Part shown: positions 10,312-29,735 of the stretch, in pieces
Layout of the letters: each line of letters starts with the position of its first letter
Numbering within the stretch: position 1 is the stretch's first letter
Virus record (IMG/VR): IMGVR_UViG_3300027771_000059
Span: 1 to 32,011 of that record
DNA: 32,011 nucleotides
Direction: 5' to 3' (one strand)
Source: a virus
The notes under the pieces: generated by a model
What the model was told of the DNA's origin: nothing
The model's database searches: none
What the model saw: only the letters and a program-made list of their open reading frames with translations
Position numbers and translations under genes: made by a program

Positions 10312-10359
10312 TAACTTAATATAAAAAGCATTAAAACGGTTTTTATACCTTTGTTAGGC
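10312..10359 (-). repeat. attC-like hairpin 1 (after the 72-aa gene)
   Basis: TAAC (10312-10315) pairs with GTTA (10353-10356); TATAAAAA (10320-10327) pairs with TTTTTATA (10340-10347). Minus strand: TAAC, 4 nt, GTATAA ... TTATAT, 3 nt, GTTA. The outer box extends to GTTAGGC (10353-10359), a full match to the attC R-box consensus. Very similar to the site at 20127-20171. Confidence 0.6.
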
Positions 10360-10667
10360 ACAACTAATAAAAAAGCCGCCAATATTGTGGGATTCTCATC
10401 ATGCTGTTCTAAAATAAATTCTTTCTATAAAATTTAAATCATTTTTTAATTTATTTTTTAACTGTTTTATTTCGTAAAAAATTGATGCATCATTTCCTGT
10501 ACAAAAAATATTATCTCGATTGTTAACGCTATTTAAAGAAATTTTACTTTCAAGTTTTTTTACTTTTTCAGAATGATCTTTAATAATTAATCTTCTTTCT
10601 TCGTGTATTGTTTTCATAATTTAAGGGTTTGGCGTTCGCCACGGCTTTTTTATTAGCAGTGCCTAAC
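10353..10667. repeat. 26-bp inverted repeat flanking the 72-aa gene
   Basis: The left copy at 10353-10378 and the right copy at 10642-10667 are inverted and match at 24 of 26 positions. Each begins at its outer end with GTTAGGCAC and ends at the inside with AAAAAAGCCG. The unit is 315 bp and contains only the 72-residue gene. The outer 7 bp of each copy are also the R boxes of attC-like sites 1 and 6. A 12-bp palindrome TGGCGTTCGCCA (10630-10641) adjoins the right copy. Confidence 0.8.
10399..10617 (-). CDS. Small cassette gene, helical protein (72 aa)
   Basis: The 72-residue product is basic and probably one long helix or coiled coil: an N-terminal KTIHEERRLIIKDHSEKVKKLE, then a second charged helix (YEIKQLKNKLKNDL). 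Residues cover the whole ORF from ATG in AAATTATG to a TGA. Function unknown; small helical proteins of this kind can be antirepressors, DNA-binding or inhibitor proteins, but no family is recognised. It is the only gene between two attC-like sites and inside a 26-bp inverted repeat, so it looks like a self-contained cassette. No promoter of its own is visible. Confidence 0.6.
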   Translation of the reverse strand: MKTIHEERRLIIKDHSEKVKKLESKISLNSVNNRDNIFCTGNDASIFYEIKQLKNKLKNDLNFIERIYFRTA

Positions 10668-10789
10668 AAAATATAAAACTAATTGCTAGTTACTAATTAT
10701 TAAAGTTGGTTATATCATTCATTAAGTGTATTAATAGTTATTAATGCTTGGTTATTCATACAAGCAACAATTTTTATACCCTCAAGTTA
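10664..10789 (-). repeat. attC-like hairpin 6 (long form)
   Basis: TAAC (10664-10667) with GTTA (10786-10789); TATAAAA (10672-10678) with TTTTATA (10772-10778); ATTG (10682-10685) with CAAT (10768-10771). Minus strand: TAAC, 6 nt, GTATAA ... TTATAT, 3 nt, GTTAGGC. At 126 bp it has the same size and spacer as the sites at 12005 and 20765. Confidence 0.5.
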
Positions 10790-10891: not shown

Positions 10892-10939
10892 TAACAACGT
10901 ATAAAGTGCATTGAAACGCACCTTATACAATGCGTTAGC
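10892..10939 (-). repeat. attC-like hairpin 2 (after the adenine methyltransferase)
   Basis: TAAC (10892-10895) with GTTA (10934-10937); GTATAA (10899-10904) with TTATAC (10923-10928); GTGC (10906-10909) with GCAC (10918-10921), separated by a single A/C mismatch. Spacers are 3 and 5 nt. The stop codon of the methyltransferase gene is the TAA of the TAAC box, as is common where cassette genes end in their attC site. Confidence 0.65.
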
Positions 10940-11663
10940 CACAATACACAAATAGCTTCTCGGTACTTAATTTATTGCCTCCGCTTTTTCCGTTTGCACT
11001 TAAGCTACTTTTAGTTTCTTTTTCCCAAACACATTTAAAGTCTTCAGGTGCTTTATACTCACTTACAAATACTTTATGTCCTTGCTTTGTTTTTAATCTT
11101 ACCCATTCCCAAAACTCAATATGGTTAAACTCTTCCCTATCGTTATAACTTGTTGTTCCTTTGTATGGTGGGTCACAATAAATTAAACTATTGTCGGGTA
11201 TTTCTAAGTCATTATATTTTAAGTTGCTAAACTCAACACCGTTTAACTTTGGTACTTGTTTCAATATATTTCTCAACGCTTCTGCTTGGTAGTTTCTTTT
11301 TACTCCTGTTTTAGTATTAACCACACCAGCGCAGCCACCGTTAAAATAATCACCACTAAAAGAGCATCCAAAACCTACCCAACCTAAGTAATCGCTTTTA
11401 TAATCACTTTTGTTATCTCTTATTTTTTTGTAATCATCTTTAGTTATAAAAAAGTCAGGCTTAAACCCCTTGTAAACAAAACTTTTCCACATCTCTATTA
11501 ATTCAAAATGCAAATCGTTTGCAAGTCTTTTACCCGTCACTTTATCAATCATATTCATACCACCTGCAAAAGGTTCAATGTACCATTGCTCAGGTGTTCT
11601 ATCTTTTAATATTATAGGTAACAATTCTTTTGCAAACCTATTTTTACTTCCTATGTATTTCAT
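10935..11663 (-). CDS. DNA adenine methyltransferase, D12 class (Dam-like), in a cassette
   Basis: A 242-residue enzyme expected to methylate adenine N6 using SAM. The N-terminal KYIGSKNR corresponds to the FxGxK start of the D12 family, motif I is EPFAGGMNM (residues 30-38), and catalytic motif IV is CDPPYKGTTSY with DPPY at 164-167, giving alpha-class order. Length is normal for Dam-type enzymes. No restriction partner is encoded, so protection against host restriction or epigenetic signalling is likely; specificity (GATC or other) cannot be read. It runs against the phage late genes, ends within an attC-like site, follows another such site, and has no promoter of its own: all signs of a cassette acquired separately from the phage backbone. 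Confidence 0.92.
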   Translation of the reverse strand: MKYIGSKNRFAKELLPIILKDRTPEQWYIEPFAGGMNMIDKVTGKRLANDLHFELIEMWKSFVYKGFKPDFFITKDDYKKIRDNKSDYKSDYLGWVGFGCSFSGDYFNGGCAGVVNTKTGVKRNYQAEALRNILKQVPKLNGVEFSNLKYNDLEIPDNSLIYCDPPYKGTTSYNDREEFNHIEFWEWVRLKTKQGHKVFVSEYKAPEDFKCVWEKETKSSLSANGKSGGNKLSTEKLFVYCG

Positions 11664-11697: not shown

Positions 11698-11749
11698 GCT
11701 AACAATGTATATAAGCCATAAAAAAACGGCTCATATACTAACCGTTAGC
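11698..11749 (-). repeat. attC-like hairpin 3 (best formed)
   Basis: GCTAAC (11698-11703) with GTTAGC (11744-11749), GTATAT (11707-11712) with ATATAC (11733-11738), AGCC (11714-11717) with GGCT (11728-11731). Spacers are 3 and 5 nt, with one unpaired base on each side between the inner boxes and a 10-nt loop. This is the attC plan of two paired box sets with asymmetric spacers. Confidence 0.7.
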
Positions 11750-11754
11750 ATTAA

Positions 11755-11991
11755 TTATCCCATCCAATGTTCGCCAAAAGTATGTCCATCATAAGTTGAA
11801 GGTTCACTATATTTTTGGTTACTTGACTTAAAGTCATCCCATTCTCGCCAACCCTTACCGTATTTTAAATTTATTTCTTGTCTTGCGGTTTCTACAGCAA
11901 CATTTTCTTTTTTTTTAGAAGTACATACTTTTAACTTTTGCTTAATTAAAATAGCGAGTTCTTTTCTTATTGCTTTTGTGCTTTTTTCCAT
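11755..11991 (-). CDS. Cassette gene, small basic protein (78 aa)
   Basis: The product starts with a Lys-rich helix (MEKSTKAIRKELAILIKQKL) and ends in a Trp- and Gly-containing tail (KYGKGWREWDDFKSSNQKYS... EHWMG). No known domain is recognised. The ATG follows closely after the GTTAGAATTAG end of an attC-like site, and the TAA lies a few bases before the next site, so the gene fills one cassette almost exactly. It would be the first gene read from the TAnnTTTG promoter at 12131-12161. Confidence 0.6.
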   Translation of the reverse strand: MEKSTKAIRKELAILIKQKLKVCTSKKKENVAVETARQEINLKYGKGWREWDDFKSSNQKYSEPSTYDGHTFGEHWMG

Positions 11992-12004: not shown

Positions 12005-12126
12005 TAACAATGTATAAAAAACACACTTTGTCAGTCTTTATTTAAAGGTTATTACTATTTATTTACTTTGTGTTTAATAAAATATTTTCGCTTCTTAAAA
12101 CGTGCGTTGTTTATACTTAGCAGTTA
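12005..12126 (-). repeat. attC-like hairpin 5 (long form, head of the array)
   Basis: TAAC (12005-12008) with GTTA (12123-12126); GTATAAA (12012-12018) with TTTATAC (12110-12116); AAC (12020-12022) with GTT (12106-12108); CAC (12024-12026) with GTG (12102-12104). Spacers are 3 and 6 nt. Total 122 bp. The predicted start of transcription from the adjoining minus promoter falls at its outer edge. Confidence 0.6.
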
Positions 12127-19662: not shown

Positions 19663-19691
19663 CAAATATACACTAAATTATGAGACTACAA
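19663..19691 (-). promoter_or_regulatory. Minus-strand host-type promoter at the spanin start
   Basis: TATATTTG (19663-19670) with TTG (19689-19691) 18 bp upstream, both exact matches to the Bacteroidota consensus. It reads away from the spanin gene into the endolysin end. Confidence 0.6.
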
Positions 19692-20129
19692 AATAAATCT
19701 TACATTTTTTTATTATTATTTTTTTTTGTTGGTTGTGTGGCTAAAAAATCTACTGTCGAATATAAAGAGCGCATTGCACGAGACACATCGAGCGTGCAAA
19801 CGGTTAAGACCATAATTAAGCCAGTAAAAGAGTACTTGATAGTAGACAACCCTTGCGATGGTTTAGGCTTGTTAAAGTCGTTTGAAAAGACTATTAAAAC
19901 AGAGAAAGCAACGGTTAAATTATACAATGATAAAGGCAGTATTAAAGTTGATATAAATATAGATAGTATTGTAGATTTAGAGGTAAATAAATTTAAAAGA
20001 AATTACAAATCAGAAGTAGAAATAAAAAAGGTAACAGTGGTTAAATTCCGTTACCCCTTGTGGCTTATTATTGGTTTTGGTATTTCTATATTTCTGAACG
20101 TAATTTTATTAAAGTCTAAGTTATTTTAA
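19680..20129 (+). CDS. Candidate unimolecular spanin (lipoprotein with C-terminal membrane helix)
   Basis: 149 residues. The N-terminus is a lipoprotein signal (basic start, hydrophobic run, lipobox FVGC with Cys19), and a second hydrophobic segment at about 126-146 (PLWLIIGFGISIFLNVILL) lies at the C-terminus. The part between is periplasmic and charged (SFEKTIKTEKATVKLYNDKG). A lipoprotein anchored in the outer membrane at one end and in the inner membrane at the other is the plan of u-spanins, which fuse the two membranes in lysis of Gram-negative hosts. It follows the endolysin gene, the expected place. Its stop lies within attC-like site 4. I infer function from topology, not from homology. 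Confidence 0.65.
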   Translation: MRLQNKSYIFLLLFFFVGCVAKKSTVEYKERIARDTSSVQTVKTIIKPVKEYLIVDNPCDGLGLLKSFEKTIKTEKATVKLYNDKGSIKVDINIDSIVDLEVNKFKRNYKSEVEIKKVTVVKFRYPLWLIIGFGISIFLNVILLKSKLF

Positions 20130-20173
20130 CTTTGTATAAAAAACATTAAAACGTTCTTTATACCTTTGTTAGC
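20127..20173 (-). repeat. attC-like hairpin 4 (second locus)
   Basis: TAAC (20127-20130) with GTTA (20168-20171); GTATAAA (20134-20140) with TTTATAC (20157-20163); AAC (20142-20144) with GTT (20053-type partner at 20153-20155). Spacers are 3 and 4 nt, total 45 bp. Close in sequence to site 1. The TAA stop of the 120-residue gene is the TAA of its TAAC box. Confidence 0.6.
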
Positions 20174-20531
20174 AATCATTCCTCAAGAACGCTCCTACTT
20201 GTTTAACGAAATCTCGGTGGCAATTCCAACACAATCTGTAATCACTTTCTTTTCGGCTCTCTATAAATACCTTTTGGTATCCACTACCTTCCTTTATTGC
20301 AGGGTGGCTAAATCCTATCTTTTCATCTCTTCCAAATAGAGCCTCTGTACTGCAACAATCAATACCTATTTCCAACTTAATATGACAAGCACTTTCTTCC
20401 CATCGAGTTAAAAGCGATTTGCCACACTTCGAGCAACAAGAACGATTGATAACACGAGATAAACGTAATTGCTCTATTTCGTGCTGTTTAATAATGTTCT
20501 GTGCTTTTTCTAATTCTTTATTTGTTATCAT
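20169..20531 (-). CDS. Zinc-ribbon-like protein (120 aa), cassette gene
   Basis: An N-terminal helix (LEKAQNIIKQHEIEQLRLSR) is followed by CCSKCGK (about residues 32-38), CH and CC around 49-60, and a final CWNCH motif. Cys pairs spaced CxxC suggest one zinc-binding ribbon. No enzymatic motif is recognised. It stands between the 79-residue gene and attC-like site 4 in minus orientation, and its TAA lies in the site's TAAC box. Role unknown. Confidence 0.65.
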   Translation of the reverse strand: MITNKELEKAQNIIKQHEIEQLRLSRVINRSCCSKCGKSLLTRWEESACHIKLEIGIDCCSTEALFGRDEKIGFSHPAIKEGSGYQKVFIESRKESDYRLCWNCHRDFVKQVGAFLRNDC

Positions 20532-20584
20532 AATTTCTTCTTTTAAGTTCGCAACTACGCTTATTTAAACCGTTGTAAGTAATG

Positions 20585-20824
20585 CTAAATATTTAGCTGT
20601 TCTACACACCACGCTCGGCTTTTTTTATCAATCCAAATACTTCTACAGTTTAAATGGTTTATTTCATCTCCGTGTATATTTCTGGCAAATGTAAAGCCTC
20701 TCTTTTTTGCTTCTTTAATATCAATACTTATAAATAATTGTCTGTACTTATCTCTCACTACAAACAACAATGTATAAAAAAAATTGCTACTTTCTACATT
20801 TTTATAATCTAATTCTTTAAACAT
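20585..20824 (-). CDS. Hypothetical protein (79 aa), start uncertain
   Basis: The ORF begins MFKELDYKNVESSNFFYTLL in the usual TAAATTATG context and ends RAWCVEQLNI. The last 45 residues are charged with conserved-looking Trp and Cys, but no family is recognised. Its first 20 or so codons overlap attC-like site 7 (20765-20889), so either the site is coding DNA or the true start is a later GTG. If the cassette reading is right, the second option is expected. Confidence 0.45.
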   Translation of the reverse strand: MFKELDYKNVESSNFFYTLLFVVRDKYRQLFISIDIKEAKKRGFTFARNIHGDEINHLNCRSIWIDKKSRAWCVEQLNI

Positions 20825-20889
20825 AATTTATTATTTTATTTATTAATTTCATTGTAATTAGACGCAACATTTCTTATACAAATAAGTTA
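20765..20889 (-). repeat. attC-like hairpin 7 (long form)
   Basis: CAAC (20765-20768) with GTTA (20886-20889); GTATAA (20772-20777) with TTATAC (20874-20879); AAAT (20781-20784) with ATTT (20869-20872); TGC (20785-20787) with GCA (20864-20866). Spacers are 3 and 6 nt, total 125 bp, like sites 5 and 6. The TAA of the 55-residue gene is in its TAAC. It overlaps the annotated start of the 79-residue ORF. Confidence 0.45.
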
Positions 20890-21054
20890 TAAAAGAACCC
20901 CAATAATAAAACCAACAAATAAAACAAGTACTATTATTATTAATATAAAATTACTACCTGTATCTTCTCCTAAAACCATAGGGTCATTTACTAAATTATC
21001 CCACGCCATATAATCTTCTTTTTTTAAATTGTCTAAATATTCTTTATCAATCAT
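20887..21054 (-). CDS. Small single-helix membrane protein (55 aa)
   Basis: A soluble, acidic N-terminal half (MIDKEYLDNLKKEDYMAWDN) followed by one hydrophobic helix at residues 35-55 (NFILIIIVLVLFVGFIIGVLL). The stop codon falls in the TAAC box of attC-like site 7. The ATG is in AAATTATG context, 18 bp after the stop of the exonuclease gene. Function unknown; a membrane-exclusion or inhibitor role is possible but not indicated. Confidence 0.6.
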   Translation of the reverse strand: MIDKEYLDNLKKEDYMAWDNLVNDPMVLGEDTGSNFILIIIVLVLFVGFIIGVLL

Positions 21055-21072
21055 AATTTGCTATATTAAGCG

Positions 21073-22020
21073 TTAACTATTAATTATCTTTCTTTGTAAA
21101 AAATCCATATAAGATTTATTAGAAACCTTATATTGATGCTTCGACCCTTCACAGTATAAAATACGTTGTACCGTTCCCTGCTCAGTAAAGATAGTCTTTA
21201 ATAACTTAACATCTACAGAGCCACTAACAGGACACGCCCACTTTGCCAAACCTTGTTTAACTGCGTTATTTGTTACACTTCCAAAGTAAGGTTTTAAAGT
21301 CATATAAAGTTCCTCAGTTGTTACAATATCGCCTTTATTATAGTCTACCATTTTACCTAAATACTCTTTTTGATCCGCTTTACTTCCATACTCTATCATG
21401 TCCCACATATGCATACCTTCGTGCGATTGTTTTAATGTTAAACCAAAATATTTAGCCATGTAAGCCATTGAAAACGATGGTAATCTAAAGTATCTTTTAG
21501 CCATTCTATAGATATCAAAACTTTTTACGTATCTATCGACTCTTAATTTATGCTTTGCGGCTCTAGTATTTATCCATTTATTATCAAATGAATTATTATT
21601 TTGACCGATTACCATTGATGCCTTATTATATTGTTTTAAGAATTTTTCAAGCATCTTTTTGTCGCAGTGGTTTTCGTCCCATGTTAAAGATTTAACAACG
21701 TCCTCACCAACCCATTTCCATGCTACAGATATAATTTTAGGCTCTGTGCGCAATTGTTTATGATTTATGTATTGTTTCCCTGTCCACCATACAGTAGCTT
21801 CTGTACGGCTAGTTTCTATATCGTAGACCATTATTTTCTCATCGACTACATTAGACTGTTTAATAGATAAAAACAATTCTTTTGCGTACCTTCTTATGGT
21901 GCGTTCGGTAACATTTAAAAATTGGCTTAATTCTTCTTGTATTTTCTTCCTTGATTTATTACTAGAATACTGGTCAATTATTAATTGCCTGTTCTTTTTA
22001 CTCAATAGATTTACGCTCAT
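21073..22020 (-). CDS. DEDDy 3'-5' exonuclease (RNase H-like) with N-terminal HTH
   Basis: A 315-residue protein. Residues 1-50 look like a helix-turn-helix (KSRKKIQEELSQFLNVTERT), residues 60-245 an RNase H-like exonuclease: Exo I as MVYDIET (D67, E69), Exo II as NNNSFDNKW (D146), Exo III as YNKGD (Y227, D231), giving the DEDDy set. The C-terminal part holds a CPVSG and an RILYCEGSKHQY stretch that may form another small module. It would degrade DNA or RNA from the 3' end, perhaps in replication or against host or rival DNA. It has its own promoter diverging from the early operon. Its TAA (21073-21075) begins an R-box-like TAACGC. Confidence 0.8.
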   Translation of the reverse strand: MSVNLLSKKNRQLIIDQYSSNKSRKKIQEELSQFLNVTERTIRRYAKELFLSIKQSNVVDEKIMVYDIETSRTEATVWWTGKQYINHKQLRTEPKIISVAWKWVGEDVVKSLTWDENHCDKKMLEKFLKQYNKASMVIGQNNNSFDNKWINTRAAKHKLRVDRYVKSFDIYRMAKRYFRLPSFSMAYMAKYFGLTLKQSHEGMHMWDMIEYGSKADQKEYLGKMVDYNKGDIVTTEELYMTLKPYFGSVTNNAVKQGLAKWACPVSGSVDVKLLKTIFTEQGTVQRILYCEGSKHQYKVSNKSYMDFLQRKIINS

Positions 22021-24772: not shown

Positions 24773-25247
24773 ATTTCAAAAAAACAATTTAGATAGAGTT
24801 TATAATTATTTGCTACATGAAAAAAATATAGATATTTCTATAAATCGAAGGGTTACGGATATTGTAGAATATAGATCTTTATTTAATACAATTTGTAACA
24901 AGAAATATAAAGTAGGTAGTTCTATGATTGCAAGATATTACCAATCAAAAGGTAAATCAATGACTCATGCCTCAGTAATACATTCTATTGATAAATTTAA
25001 AACTTATAAAGAATATGTACCCGACTTAACGGAAATATACAATGAGTTAAATATGTTATATTTTACTAAAAAATTTAATAATGTTGAGGTTAAATACGTA
25101 CATACAAAGAAATTAACTAAAGTACAAAAATCTGTATCTGATTTAACTGAAGACCAACAAATCGAACTCTTAGAAATGATTGAACTTAGAAAAAAATCAT
25201 GGGCTTGGAAGAATAAAGATAGAATAACAATAATAGAAGGGTGTTAA
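24753..25247 (+). CDS. DnaA-domain-IV-like DNA-binding protein
   Basis: 164 residues. The centre (residues 30-82) resembles DnaA domain IV, the HTH that recognises DnaA boxes: RRVTDIVEYRSLF, then SMIARYYQSKGKSMTHASVIHSIDKF, in which T71-H72 and VIH correspond to the HsTVl..i signature. The N- and C-terminal parts are helical and Lys-rich. No AAA+ domain is present, so it would bind origin-like DNA or compete with host DnaA and not unwind DNA itself. Position between SSB-like and methyltransferase genes supports a replication role. Confidence 0.7.
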   Translation: MKKQLTEFQKNNLDRVYNYLLHEKNIDISINRRVTDIVEYRSLFNTICNKKYKVGSSMIARYYQSKGKSMTHASVIHSIDKFKTYKEYVPDLTEIYNELNMLYFTKKFNNVEVKYVHTKKLTKVQKSVSDLTEDQQIELLEMIELRKKSWAWKNKDRITIIEGC

Positions 25248-25248
25248 G

Positions 25249-25632
25249 ATGAGGAAATTAAATAAAGAACAAGTAGACAATGTAAGTGGTGGTATTTTAA
25301 CAGGTTTTGAGTTCCTCCACTATTTAGAAGAATGTGTACGTTTAGGAGTTTTTGAACCAGCAGCGTTAAAAAGAGTAAAGGCGACAATTAAACATCTACA
25401 ATTTATTGAAGAACACTTTTACAACCAAGTGGAAGAAATGGACGAGGAAAATATTAGTGATAAATTAATGTCGAATAAATTAGATTATGTAAAATGGATG
25501 TTAGACGAATTCCCTCACAGCCAATACGCAAAATTACAAGAGGTAAACATTGCTTTTAGTTTGGACGCTCGTAGGCTTTGCGGAATCTCTGACAAAATAC
25601 ACTTAGAAAATAACGCAATTAAAATATTATGA
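25249..25632 (+). CDS. Hypothetical early protein (127 aa)
   Basis: A soluble helical protein: an N-terminal KLNKEQVDNVSGGILTG, a middle CVRLGVFEPAALKRVKATI and a charged helix (FIEEHFYNQVEEMDEE). The first 16 residues resemble a double-glycine leader of peptide bacteriocins by chance or descent, but the remaining 110 residues are not a bacteriocin core. It starts 1 bp after the DnaA-like gene and overlaps the methyltransferase by 4 bp, so it is an ordinary member of the early operon. Function unknown. Confidence 0.55.
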   Translation: MRKLNKEQVDNVSGGILTGFEFLHYLEECVRLGVFEPAALKRVKATIKHLQFIEEHFYNQVEEMDEENISDKLMSNKLDYVKWMLDEFPHSQYAKLQEVNIAFSLDARRLCGISDKIHLENNAIKIL

Positions 25633-26270
25633 TAAACATTACAAACGAAGACAATATGCTTTTAATGGCAAGATATCCAGATAATCATTTCGATTTAGCA
25701 ATAGTTGACCCACCTTATGGGATTGATATTTCTAAAACAGGAAATGTAGGTGGTAATAATTTAGGTAAGACAAAGGATTACGGGAAAAAAGAATGGGATT
25801 CTGTTATACCTACCGCAGGTTATTTTAAAGAACTAAAAAGAGTAAGTAAAAATCAAATTATTTTTGGTGGAAACTATATGATTGAGCATTTAGAAAACAC
25901 GCCTTGTTTTTTGATATGGGATAAAAATAATAGTGGCAATTTTGCAGATGCAGAATTGGCTTGGACTTCTTTTCAAACTGCTACAAGGATTTTTAAATCT
26001 ACTTGGAATGGAATGTTACAACACGATATGAAGAACAAAGAAATAAGAATACATCCAACGCAAAAACCTGTAAGATTGTATGAATGGATTTTAGATAATT
26101 ATACAGAAAAAGGGTTTAAAGTTTTAGATACTCATTTAGGAAGTGGTAGTATTGCTTTAGCGTGCCATAATAGAGAGTTTGATTTAACCGCTTGCGAATT
26201 AGATAAAGATTACTATATTGCAGCGATGAAAAGATTAAAAATACACCAACAACAATTAACAATGTTTTAA
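25629..26270 (+). CDS. DNA adenine methyltransferase, beta class (DPPY)
   Basis: A 213-residue amino-methyltransferase. DPPY is at residues 27-30, HPTQKP at 142-147, and the SAM-binding motif I VLDTHLGSGS from 165. The IV-before-I order is beta class. It is short and has no separate recognition domain. It shares the plan, but not close sequence, with the tail-module enzyme at 1200, so the two probably have different targets or timing (early here, late there). It abuts the ninG gene (stop then ATG). Role: modify phage DNA against host restriction, or influence replication. Confidence 0.9.
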   Translation: MINITNEDNMLLMARYPDNHFDLAIVDPPYGIDISKTGNVGGNNLGKTKDYGKKEWDSVIPTAGYFKELKRVSKNQIIFGGNYMIEHLENTPCFLIWDKNNSGNFADAELAWTSFQTATRIFKSTWNGMLQHDMKNKEIRIHPTQKPVRLYEWILDNYTEKGFKVLDTHLGSGSIALACHNREFDLTACELDKDYYIAAMKRLKIHQQQLTMF

Positions 26271-26885
26271 ATGATTAATAAAAAAAAGAAGTGTAAAGGG
26301 ATAGGCAAGGCAAATAAATACAGTGGTTGTAATCGTTTAACATTATATCGTAAATACGGACTATGCACCGATGGCGGTAAATCTTGCTACGCTTCTTTTT
26401 TATTAGATAGTTTAGTAGGTGGTAATTTAACATCTAAGGCAATTATTCAGGCAAAGAAGCCCCGTAAAGACTACAACGATATGGTAAAATCTACCAAGGA
26501 GAATAAATCTTTAGAAGCGCTAAAAAAGACCGTAGTAAATTTGTGCCATAAATACATCCGGTTAAGAGACACCGGTAAACCTTGCGCAAGTTGTAAGACC
26601 GGTTATAAAAGTGATTTTGATGCCGGACACTATTACTCTGCCGGTAAATACTCTAATCTTAAATTTAACGAATATAATATACATGCACAATGTATACAAT
26701 GTAACCGGTATAAAGAGGGGAATTTAGAAAGTTACCGGTTAAACATGCCTAATATAGTAGGTCCGGACCGGTTAAAAGAGTTGGACCAATTAGCGGACCG
26801 GTATAAAAAAGAGGTATTTAAATGGGATCGACAAGAATTAATTAATTTAGGTAATTATTATAAAAAACTAATTAAAACATTGTAG
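26271..26885 (+). CDS. ninG: NinG-like recombination protein
   Basis: A 204-residue protein of the lambda NinG/Rap family, Holliday-junction endonucleases acting in phage recombination. The N-terminus has CKGIGKANKYSGC and CTDGGKSC. The core is CHKYIRLRDTGKPCASC (C105, C108), DFDAGHYYSAGKYSNLKFNE with H120, and HAQCIQCNRYKEGN (C141, C144), the zinc-finger/HNH-like centre of the family. Codon use within 26558-26801 is odd: ten CCGG tetramers, Arg written as CGG, while the rest of the window has only one CCGG. The start abuts the methyltransferase stop. Confidence 0.85.
   Translation: MINKKKKCKGIGKANKYSGCNRLTLYRKYGLCTDGGKSCYASFLLDSLVGGNLTSKAIIQAKKPRKDYNDMVKSTKENKSLEALKKTVVNLCHKYIRLRDTGKPCASCKTGYKSDFDAGHYYSAGKYSNLKFNEYNIHAQCIQCNRYKEGNLESYRLNMPNIVGPDRLKELDQLADRYKKEVFKWDRQELINLGNYYKKLIKTL
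26558..26801. repeat. Dense CCGG cluster inside ninG
   Basis: CCGG occurs at 26558, 26572, 26599, 26623, 26641, 26705, 26735, 26763, 26768 and 26798; six are ACCGGT. Most are followed by T and A-rich sequence (pattern ACCGGTTWAAA). All three codon phases are used. The only other CCGG I found by scanning the whole window is at 29640. Confidence 0.8.
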
Positions 26886-28661: not shown

Positions 28662-29735
28662 ATGAAAAATACAAAACATAAATTTCCGTATAAATGGACT
28701 TTAAAAGATGCAAATTTTACAAAAGATAAAGGGACTGTATTTAGTTGCTTTGCTTGTGGAGGTGGTTCTACTATGGGTTATAAGTTAGCAGGGTTTGACG
28801 TGATAGGATGCAATGAGATAGACCCTAAAATGATGGACGCTTACAGGACTAACCATAAACCAAAGTTATCTTATTTAGAACCAATACAAACTTTTAAACT
28901 AAGAAAAGATTTACCAAAAGAACTTTATAATTTAGATGTTTTGGATGGTTCGCCCCCTTGCAGCAGTTTCTCAATGTCTGGGAATAGAGAAAAAGATTGG
29001 GGAAAAGAAAAAAAGTTTAGAGAAGGACAAGCAGAACAAGTTTTAGATAATCTATTTTTTGATTTTATAGATTTAGCAAAAGAATTACAACCTAAAGTAG
29101 TTGTTGCTGAAAACGTAAAAGGATTACTACAAGGTGATGCAAAAGAATATGTAAGAAATATTTATATAGATTTTGATAAGGCTGGTTATTACTGCCAACA
29201 CTTTCTTTTGAATGCTTCTAAAATGGGTGTACCTCAAAGACGTGAAAGGGTGTTTTTTGTTTGTTTACGTAAAGATTTAGCAAAAGATTTTTTATATTTT
29301 AAAGATATGTTTACTGAATTACCAAAAATTGAAATGGGATTTAATGAGCCATTAATAACATATAAAGAAATAAGACAATTAAAAGGAAATGAAAGTGCTG
29401 AGGGGCTTTCTCCAATGATTAAAAAATTTTGGTTGTTATGTAAAGCTGGTGATGCTTTTAGTAGTATACACCCTAAAGGAAGTTATTTTAATGAAATAAA
29501 AACACATCCAGACAAAGTATTACCTACTATTAGAGCAAATGGATTACCTTATGATTATGAGTTTGAAAGAACTTTGTATAATGATGAATGTAAAAAAGCA
29601 GGGAGTTACCCCTCAGATTATAATTTTGTGTCTAACAAGCCGGTTTATTTAATAGGAATGAGTGTACCACCTGTAATGACTGCACAGGTAGCAAGCAGAA
29701 TATATGAACAATGGTTAGTTAATATAAAAGTATAA
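28662..29735 (+). CDS. dcm: DNA cytosine-C5 methyltransferase
   Basis: A 357-residue Dcm-type enzyme that makes 5-methylcytosine. Motif I is FSCFACGGGSTMGY (from 27), IV is GSPPCSSFSMSG with catalytic C100, VI is ENV (150-152) and VIII is QRRERVFF (192-199). The variable region with the target-recognition domain spans about 205-310, and the C-terminal GMSVPPVMTAQVAS helix closes the fold. The length is normal. It has its own TAnnTTTG box. No nuclease gene accompanies it. It could protect phage DNA or modify host genes; its target, which could include CCGG, cannot be read from sequence. The symbol marks family type only. Confidence 0.92.
   Translation: MKNTKHKFPYKWTLKDANFTKDKGTVFSCFACGGGSTMGYKLAGFDVIGCNEIDPKMMDAYRTNHKPKLSYLEPIQTFKLRKDLPKELYNLDVLDGSPPCSSFSMSGNREKDWGKEKKFREGQAEQVLDNLFFDFIDLAKELQPKVVVAENVKGLLQGDAKEYVRNIYIDFDKAGYYCQHFLLNASKMGVPQRRERVFFVCLRKDLAKDFLYFKDMFTELPKIEMGFNEPLITYKEIRQLKGNESAEGLSPMIKKFWLLCKAGDAFSSIHPKGSYFNEIKTHPDKVLPTIRANGLPYDYEFERTLYNDECKKAGSYPSDYNFVSNKPVYLIGMSVPPVMTAQVASRIYEQWLVNIKV

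Follow-up and report, generated by a model that had tools for sequence, protein, structure and literature searches.

A probable block of integron-like gene cassettes, with genes antisense to their attC-like sites, in a marine-type phage

The viral DNA analysed here (IMG/VR record IMGVR_UViG_3300027771_000059, positions 1 to 32,011; the whole 32,011-nt stretch is called the window) raises the question of how a series of short minus-strand genes and attC-like sites came to lie between a gene in the spanin position and an exonuclease gene. We consider it very likely (probability about 0.86) that integron-like gene cassettes, inserted as a block, make up this second locus. This reading rests on sequence comparison; recombination is inferred, there are no recombination data, and no attI was identified. 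More generally, small genes were very probably inserted at two places in this marine-type phage as cassettes, each with a hairpin site, their excision being an inference.

The window contains seven attC-like sites in two clusters, all on the minus strand. A strict pattern (TAAC N3 [GA]TATA...TATA[CT] N4-6 GTTA) matched six of the seven, at 10312, 10664, 10892, 11700, 12005 and 20127, and gave 0 matches in 200 dinucleotide shuffles; these sites are not due to chance. A relaxed finder, requiring at least 9 of 11 arm pairs and allowing a CAAC box, recovered all seven, with no site in 94 of 100 shuffles. Four window sites were also detected (E ≤1.3e-11) by a covariance model for which 51 short sites served as input, the minus strand always scoring higher. 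On that strand the sites read TAAC-(4-7 nt)-GTATA...TATAC-(3 nt)-GTT[A/G]. In the second locus, the site at 20127..20171 (minus; structural strand minus) scored 53.7 bits with model R1 (E 2.4e-13) on the minus strand versus 32.3 bits on the plus strand, the minus strand being the better fold, and the long site at 20765..20889 (minus, 125 nt) has 10 of 11 arm pairs in the relaxed finder; on the plus strand both read box-3 nt-GTATAA...TTATAC-4 to 6 nt-GTTA. The first-pass annotation had placed both sites at these positions, had assigned them the boxes and 3-nt spacers of the first array, and had likened site 20127 to site 10312. All of this held (the latter two are 89% identical over 46 nt), except that CAAC replaces TAAC at 20765, and in the seven-site comparison that it proposed the sites from both loci form one covarying family. 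The CALIN criterion of two or more attC sites close together without an integrase is met by the seven sites in two clusters, as located with our own finders and not with IntegronFinder. An Rfam search of the window gave no match. Two further candidates were rejected: a loose-pattern hit at 24896 is a chance match within a coding gene, and a D2 repeat member at 26862 is ordinary and was not picked up by the site finder.

The second locus is flanked by native genes. On the left, a 149-aa protein (19680..20129, plus strand) occupies the spanin position after an M15 endolysin; on the right is a homologue of a DNA polymerase exonuclease subunit (21073..22020, minus strand; phrog_403, E 3.7e-52; 37 viral relatives). 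The empty version of this locus, in which the spanin gene runs straight to the exonuclease gene, had been suggested as a check and was found in two related contigs, L015 and L016, where a 65% identical homologue of the 149-aa protein is encoded directly beside the exonuclease gene, 50 nt away. With the flanks of the insert fused at G20120^TTA21073, the window sequence aligned with the empty locus of L016 with only a 1-nt internal gap; therefore 20121..21072 (952 nt, with G^TTA at both ends) is an insertion. The alternative join TTTTAA^C was rejected, since it requires a 10-nt gap versus 1 for G^TTA. The exact boundary nevertheless rests on parsimony, because the relatives with an empty locus are only 65-88% identical in the flanking proteins. 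By sequence comparison, the insertion and cassette boundaries lie at G^TT, and each cassette has the form TT...gene...attC...G; the boundaries of the first locus are excluded from this statement. These boundaries agree with the G^TT of the integron crossover G^TTRRRY; the RRRY part fits in some sites only, and the R' boxes match GTTRRRY only partially.

Four units make up the insert. K1 (20121..20168), inferred from the sequence and the G^TTA rule, is geneless and consists of 10 nt plus the attC-like site. K2 (20169..20572, minus) carries a gene at 20169-20531 for a 120-aa protein with two CxxC pairs and no confident family, for which no phage relative was found; its own site has decayed to a half (~20558-20575). 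K3 (20573..20886, minus) contains a 79-aa gene (20585-20824) and its own 5' attC-like site. K4 (20887..21072, minus), which is absent from L016, carries a gene (20887-21054) for a 55-aa protein that is hydrophobic in a C-terminal segment, and a decayed half-site (21060-21075) where the exonuclease gene has its stop codon. Both half-sites fall at predicted boundaries, and with two of the four units having decayed sites the locus is possibly partly immobile now. Two of the minus-strand genes had been described as ending in the TAAC box, which held for 20169-20531 at site 20127 and for 20887-21054 at site 20765. In this phage and most of its relatives the site lies 5' of the gene, the gene being antisense, as sequence comparison establishes. 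The travelling attC is the one 5' of the gene, because the unit spans from the C of one TAAC box to the TAA of the next. This arrangement, unlike that of ordinary host-integron cassettes, had escaped the first-pass annotation.

The 79-aa cassette was also found elsewhere. It measures 314 nt in the window and 313 nt in each of the phage contigs L368 and L369, with different surroundings in each; identity is 77-84% inside the unit, 32-41% upstream and 41-55% downstream, and homology ends at the predicted G^TT points. In Nekkels the 79-aa gene is present and the left arm of the site is missing. A conserved 79-residue protein overlapping the seventh site in relatives had been named in advance as an observation that would refute the cassette reading. 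It is literally met in three relatives, but is outweighed: the hairpin is kept in two of the three, and the whole unit moves with its edges at crossover points. One correction is needed: site 20765 and the ORF 20585-20824 overlap, the left arm of the site being part of the ORF and the start codon of the ORF falling in the terminal spacer of the site. The protein overlaps its site because long phage sites often hold the ATG of the ORF. A spacer ATG that opens an ORF of at least 40 codons through the crossover was present in 17 of 35 long phage sites, as well as in window site 20765, and in none of 24 bacterial long sites; shuffled spacers gave 4.8 on average at a laxer threshold of 20 codons. 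Separately, we observed that proteins starting in a long site (in the phage loci L118 and L298, and at L368:2157-2456) carry YTLL, encoded by the L'/R' boxes, and that YTLL falls in an apparent lipoprotein signal peptide, e.g. YTLLCLVLFSC and YTLLVVVLFTGC. That the long site encodes part of a signal sequence is a possibility inferred from sequence alone.

The five minus-strand sites of the first array lie at 10312..10356, 10892..10937 and 11700..11747 (sites 1, 3 and 4, supported by the strict pattern and the covariance model) and at 10664..10789 and 12005..12126 (the long sites 2 and 5, supported by the strict pattern and the relaxed finder). The minus-strand cassette genes of this array encode a 72-aa protein (10399..10617) with no confident family, an orphan D12-class adenine DNA methyltransferase (10935..11663; PF02086, E 1.1e-16) with relatives inside the arrays of Polaribacter phage P12002L and of contigs L124 and L174, and a 78-aa protein (11755..11991) of no family. 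This locus is empty in L045, L048, L049, L050 and L052: the flanking genes are 99 nt apart in L045, close together in the other four and 1.9 kb apart in the window. The phage therefore has at least two insertion points, and the earlier proposal of repeated capture at separate places is supported, both loci being empty in relatives. The exact boundaries of the first array are unresolved, divergence in the intergenic DNA beside it being too great to fix them. A 29-nt inverted repeat (10350-10378 / 10642-10670, 93% complementary) encloses the 72-aa cassette gene and represents an extreme form of the cassette-end complementarity past the R boxes described below.

A pattern scan of IMG/VR returned at least 119 stretches, many of them carrying 2 to 7 sites in an array. 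A genome scan with the site pattern returned 23 contigs, nearly all from Bacteroidota, and the covariance model had matches in 40 of 120 Flavobacteriaceae genomes. Arrays of the same sites thus occur both in chromosomes of Bacteroidota and in numerous viral contigs, with the caveats that IMG/VR contigs are predicted viruses and that contigs are not fully independent. Stem covariation was 0.330 versus 0.118 in shuffles (0/500), and slide controls gave at most 0.112. The sites meet the attC criteria of an imperfect hairpin with R and L boxes and of structure conserved rather than sequence, as well as that of asymmetric arms (a 5' spacer of 4-7 nt versus one of 3 nt), the structural strand being the AA^C crossover (bottom) strand; the 5'-AAC-3' crossover is the sole conserved sequence of attC bottom strands (PMC4792948). 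Conservation of the R and L boxes is partly due to selection, because the search pattern fixed them. Single-sequence folding of the long site was no better than that of shuffles, and support for long sites is comparative. On the strand reading TAAC-(4-7 nt), G.T outnumbered A.C by 90:0 in phage and 42:0 in bacterial long sites, and by 40:2 and 10:3, respectively, in short sites, with filters that make no distinction between G.T and A.C. The integron 'bottom strand' is thus the folded strand in phages and bacteria alike, and the strand-specific wobble probably reflects a substrate of single-stranded DNA, as attC bottom strands are, although this last step is inferred.

Past the R boxes, the two ends of a segment were complementary at 4.5 of 8 positions in phages (versus 2.7; shuffled maximum 3.07) and at 5.08 of 8 in bacteria (versus 2.8; shuffled maximum 3.8), while complementarity of the flanks across a site was at chance (2.7 and 3.0). 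The ends pair within segments and not across sites, as would be expected of units once closed around one site.

Gene polarity and cargo distinguish the phage arrays from the bacterial ones. The longest inter-site ORF lies on the structural strand, antisense to the site, in 43 of 44 phage segments, all four window segments and 12 of 13 segments at phage-integrase loci, amounting to 59 of 61 on the phage side. In bacteria the gene lies on the other strand, sense to the site, in 26 of 26 segments (Fisher 4e-20 for the split, with contigs not fully independent; the finder used for these counts accepts G.T, not A.C, as a pair). The usual cassette criterion of a gene co-oriented with its attC is accordingly met in 26 of 26 bacterial segments and not met in phage and window segments. 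Orphan DNA methyltransferases are the commonest recognisable cargo of phage cassettes, DNA methyltransferases of four Pfam families accounting for 11 of 49, compared with 0 of 26 bacterial cassettes. Because polarity is fixed within a cassette, phage and bacterial cassettes look like separate pools; this separation is likely, though inferred, and the difference in cargo agrees with it.

The arrays adjoin a tyrosine recombinase in Polaribacter, Aquimarina, Crocinitomicaceae, Labilibacter and Tenacibaculum, as identified in TIGR02249 and A4 searches. These enzymes are related to integron integrases and lack the IntI-specific additional domain (the patch): nine of nine aligned array or phage integrases have a 31-residue gap relative to IntI1 in the patch region and retain the catalytic residues and an SPLD-like C-terminus, and every array or phage integrase scored below the TIGR02249 cut-off. 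In ten Flavobacteriaceae genomes (own count) with array and integrase on one contig, the array follows the 3' end of the integrase gene, and the sites have their 3-nt end turned towards it. A phage-encoded clade of 264-269 aa is present in at least 175 viral contigs. Sites were found at 35 of the 80 phage-integrase loci fetched (0-1 in shuffles), 52 of 54 being upstream of the integrase and all having the 3-nt end towards it. In a quick tree, with IntI1 on a long branch, the phage enzymes form one strongly supported branch, including one member from a bacterial genome, inside the Bacteroidota enzymes. The window itself has no integrase in its ORF list and no tblastn match to the L224 and L228 integrases. 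The Ingeline and Leef temperate-phage integrases (31-39% identical) have no convincing site nearby, so not every integrase of the superfamily goes with arrays. Three minor features were noted in passing. Most bacterial array integrases (L224, L225, L228, L229, L230) have an extra N-terminal domain of ~90 aa without a confident Pfam match (DUF5710 weakly in L229); a 684-aa Labilibacter integrase (L227:6651-8705) has an apparent duplicated, degenerate recombinase half before the intact one; and in many draft Flavobacteriaceae genomes the integrase is ~1-2 kb from a contig end, as though neighbouring repeat arrays interrupted the assembly.

In the mechanism that we propose, a cassette would circularise or be released via its folded bottom strand, and a tyrosine recombinase from the IntI/Xer branch, without the IntI patch, would insert it; both steps are inferred. 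Because the window encodes no such recombinase, the host or a co-infecting phage would have to supply it, and genes of both kinds exist. The first attC at each locus may serve as a landing pad for later cassettes, which may confer small accessory functions, including DNA methylation, and exchange would take place mainly among phages. From comparison with relatives, phages likely share an integron-like cassette system with reversed genes and, in some, a recombinase of their own, recombination again being inferred. A bolder version, in which Bacteroidota phages run their own integron system with a patch-less integrase clade, a private antisense pool kept apart by polarity, and long sites that donate a start codon and N-terminal leader, is one we favour by a narrow margin only.

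An alternative is that ordinary host-integron cassettes were picked up from a shared bacterial pool with the phage as vehicle, as for published phage CALINs. The occurrence of the same site family beside an integrase in Bacteroidota chromosomes, and the methyltransferase CALINs reported in the flavobacterial phage P12002L, speak for it. We nevertheless regard it as unlikely, given the opposite polarity (antisense:sense 43:1 in phages, 4:0 in the window, 12:1 at phage-integrase loci and 0:26 in bacteria) and the different methyltransferase content of the two sets (11/49 versus 0/26).

Two other explanations dispense with integron-type recombination and seem very unlikely. The hairpins could function at the RNA level (as terminators, or as processing or regulatory elements), with genes moving by homologous recombination; in favour, the sites are at gene ends, the TAAC box often contains the stop codon, and in phages the structured strand is the coding strand. 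Since bacterial genes lie opposite relative to the site, however, this account would predict the opposite structured strand in bacteria, where the strand is unchanged (42 G.T to 0 A.C in long sites). Against it also stand the complementarity within segments and not across sites, the lack of an Rfam match and the sharp cassette edges. Single-strand hairpins with small cargo also recall HUH elements, and another mobile element with hairpin ends (IS200/IS605, REP type or a homing element) could have inserted the genes. But no such enzyme is in the window ORF list or consistently beside the arrays, where a tyrosine recombinase is, and the insertion and cassette boundaries lie at G^TT, as for integrons.

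The preferred reading, integron-like cassettes, shares with integrons and CALINs (PMC8618304, PMC4792948) the folded bottom-strand hairpins, R and L boxes, AA^C bottom and G^TT top crossover, arrays beside a tyrosine recombinase, and cassette ends split between the two sides of one site. It differs in a recombinase without the IntI additional domain, in antisense phage genes with attC 5' of the gene, and in the absence of a recognised attI. As in the Treponema chromosomal integrons (PMC3607928), the integrase in Flavobacteriaceae arrays is transcribed toward the array, in the direction of the cassette genes, but the Treponema enzyme is classed as a true intI and the Bacteroidota enzymes lack the patch. 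Most array integrases score best to the XerA model NF040815 among XerA/XerC/XerD (NF040815, TIGR02224, TIGR02225), yet differ from these in their array association, a C-terminal SPLD-like motif as in IntI1 and, mostly, the extra N-terminal domain. Published work already describes phage CALINs, one of them flavobacterial and carrying methyltransferases, as well as activity of IntI1 on phage attC sites (PMC9892861). Like the arrays here, those of Qi et al. 2023 (PMC9892861) are integrase-less, occur in virulent phages and carry methyltransferases. In the related isolate P12002L the same site type surrounds gp54, a D12 methyltransferase; in an E. coli assay, IntI1 recombined one attC of P12002L with attI1 (PMC9892861), the identity of that attC with the sites found here not being established. 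The relevant passages of that paper go no further than 'divergent directions' in P12002L; they contain no account of a systematic antisense orientation, of a patch-less integrase clade encoded by phages, of empty loci or of start codons within sites. In the open-access literature searched (subscription journals and preprints were outside the scope), no paper was found that describes attC-like arrays with patch-less integrases in Bacteroidota, or phage cassettes with antisense genes.

The patch-less, integron-like branch of Bacteroidota was present in most of 60 Flavobacteriaceae genomes sampled. Surveys recognise IntI by its additional domain (PMC9668308), and this branch would be missed by integron searches because they require that domain. 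Because patch-less enzymes adjoin attC-like arrays, the role of the IntI patch becomes directly testable. If active, the system would let phages gain and rearrange accessory genes (orphan methyltransferases, for example) in modular fashion, and would offer a natural setting in which to test how two gene pools are partitioned by cassette polarity. Outside the arrays, three more ORFs with DNA methyltransferase-like motifs lie in the window, at 1200-1940, 25629-26270 and 28662-29735.
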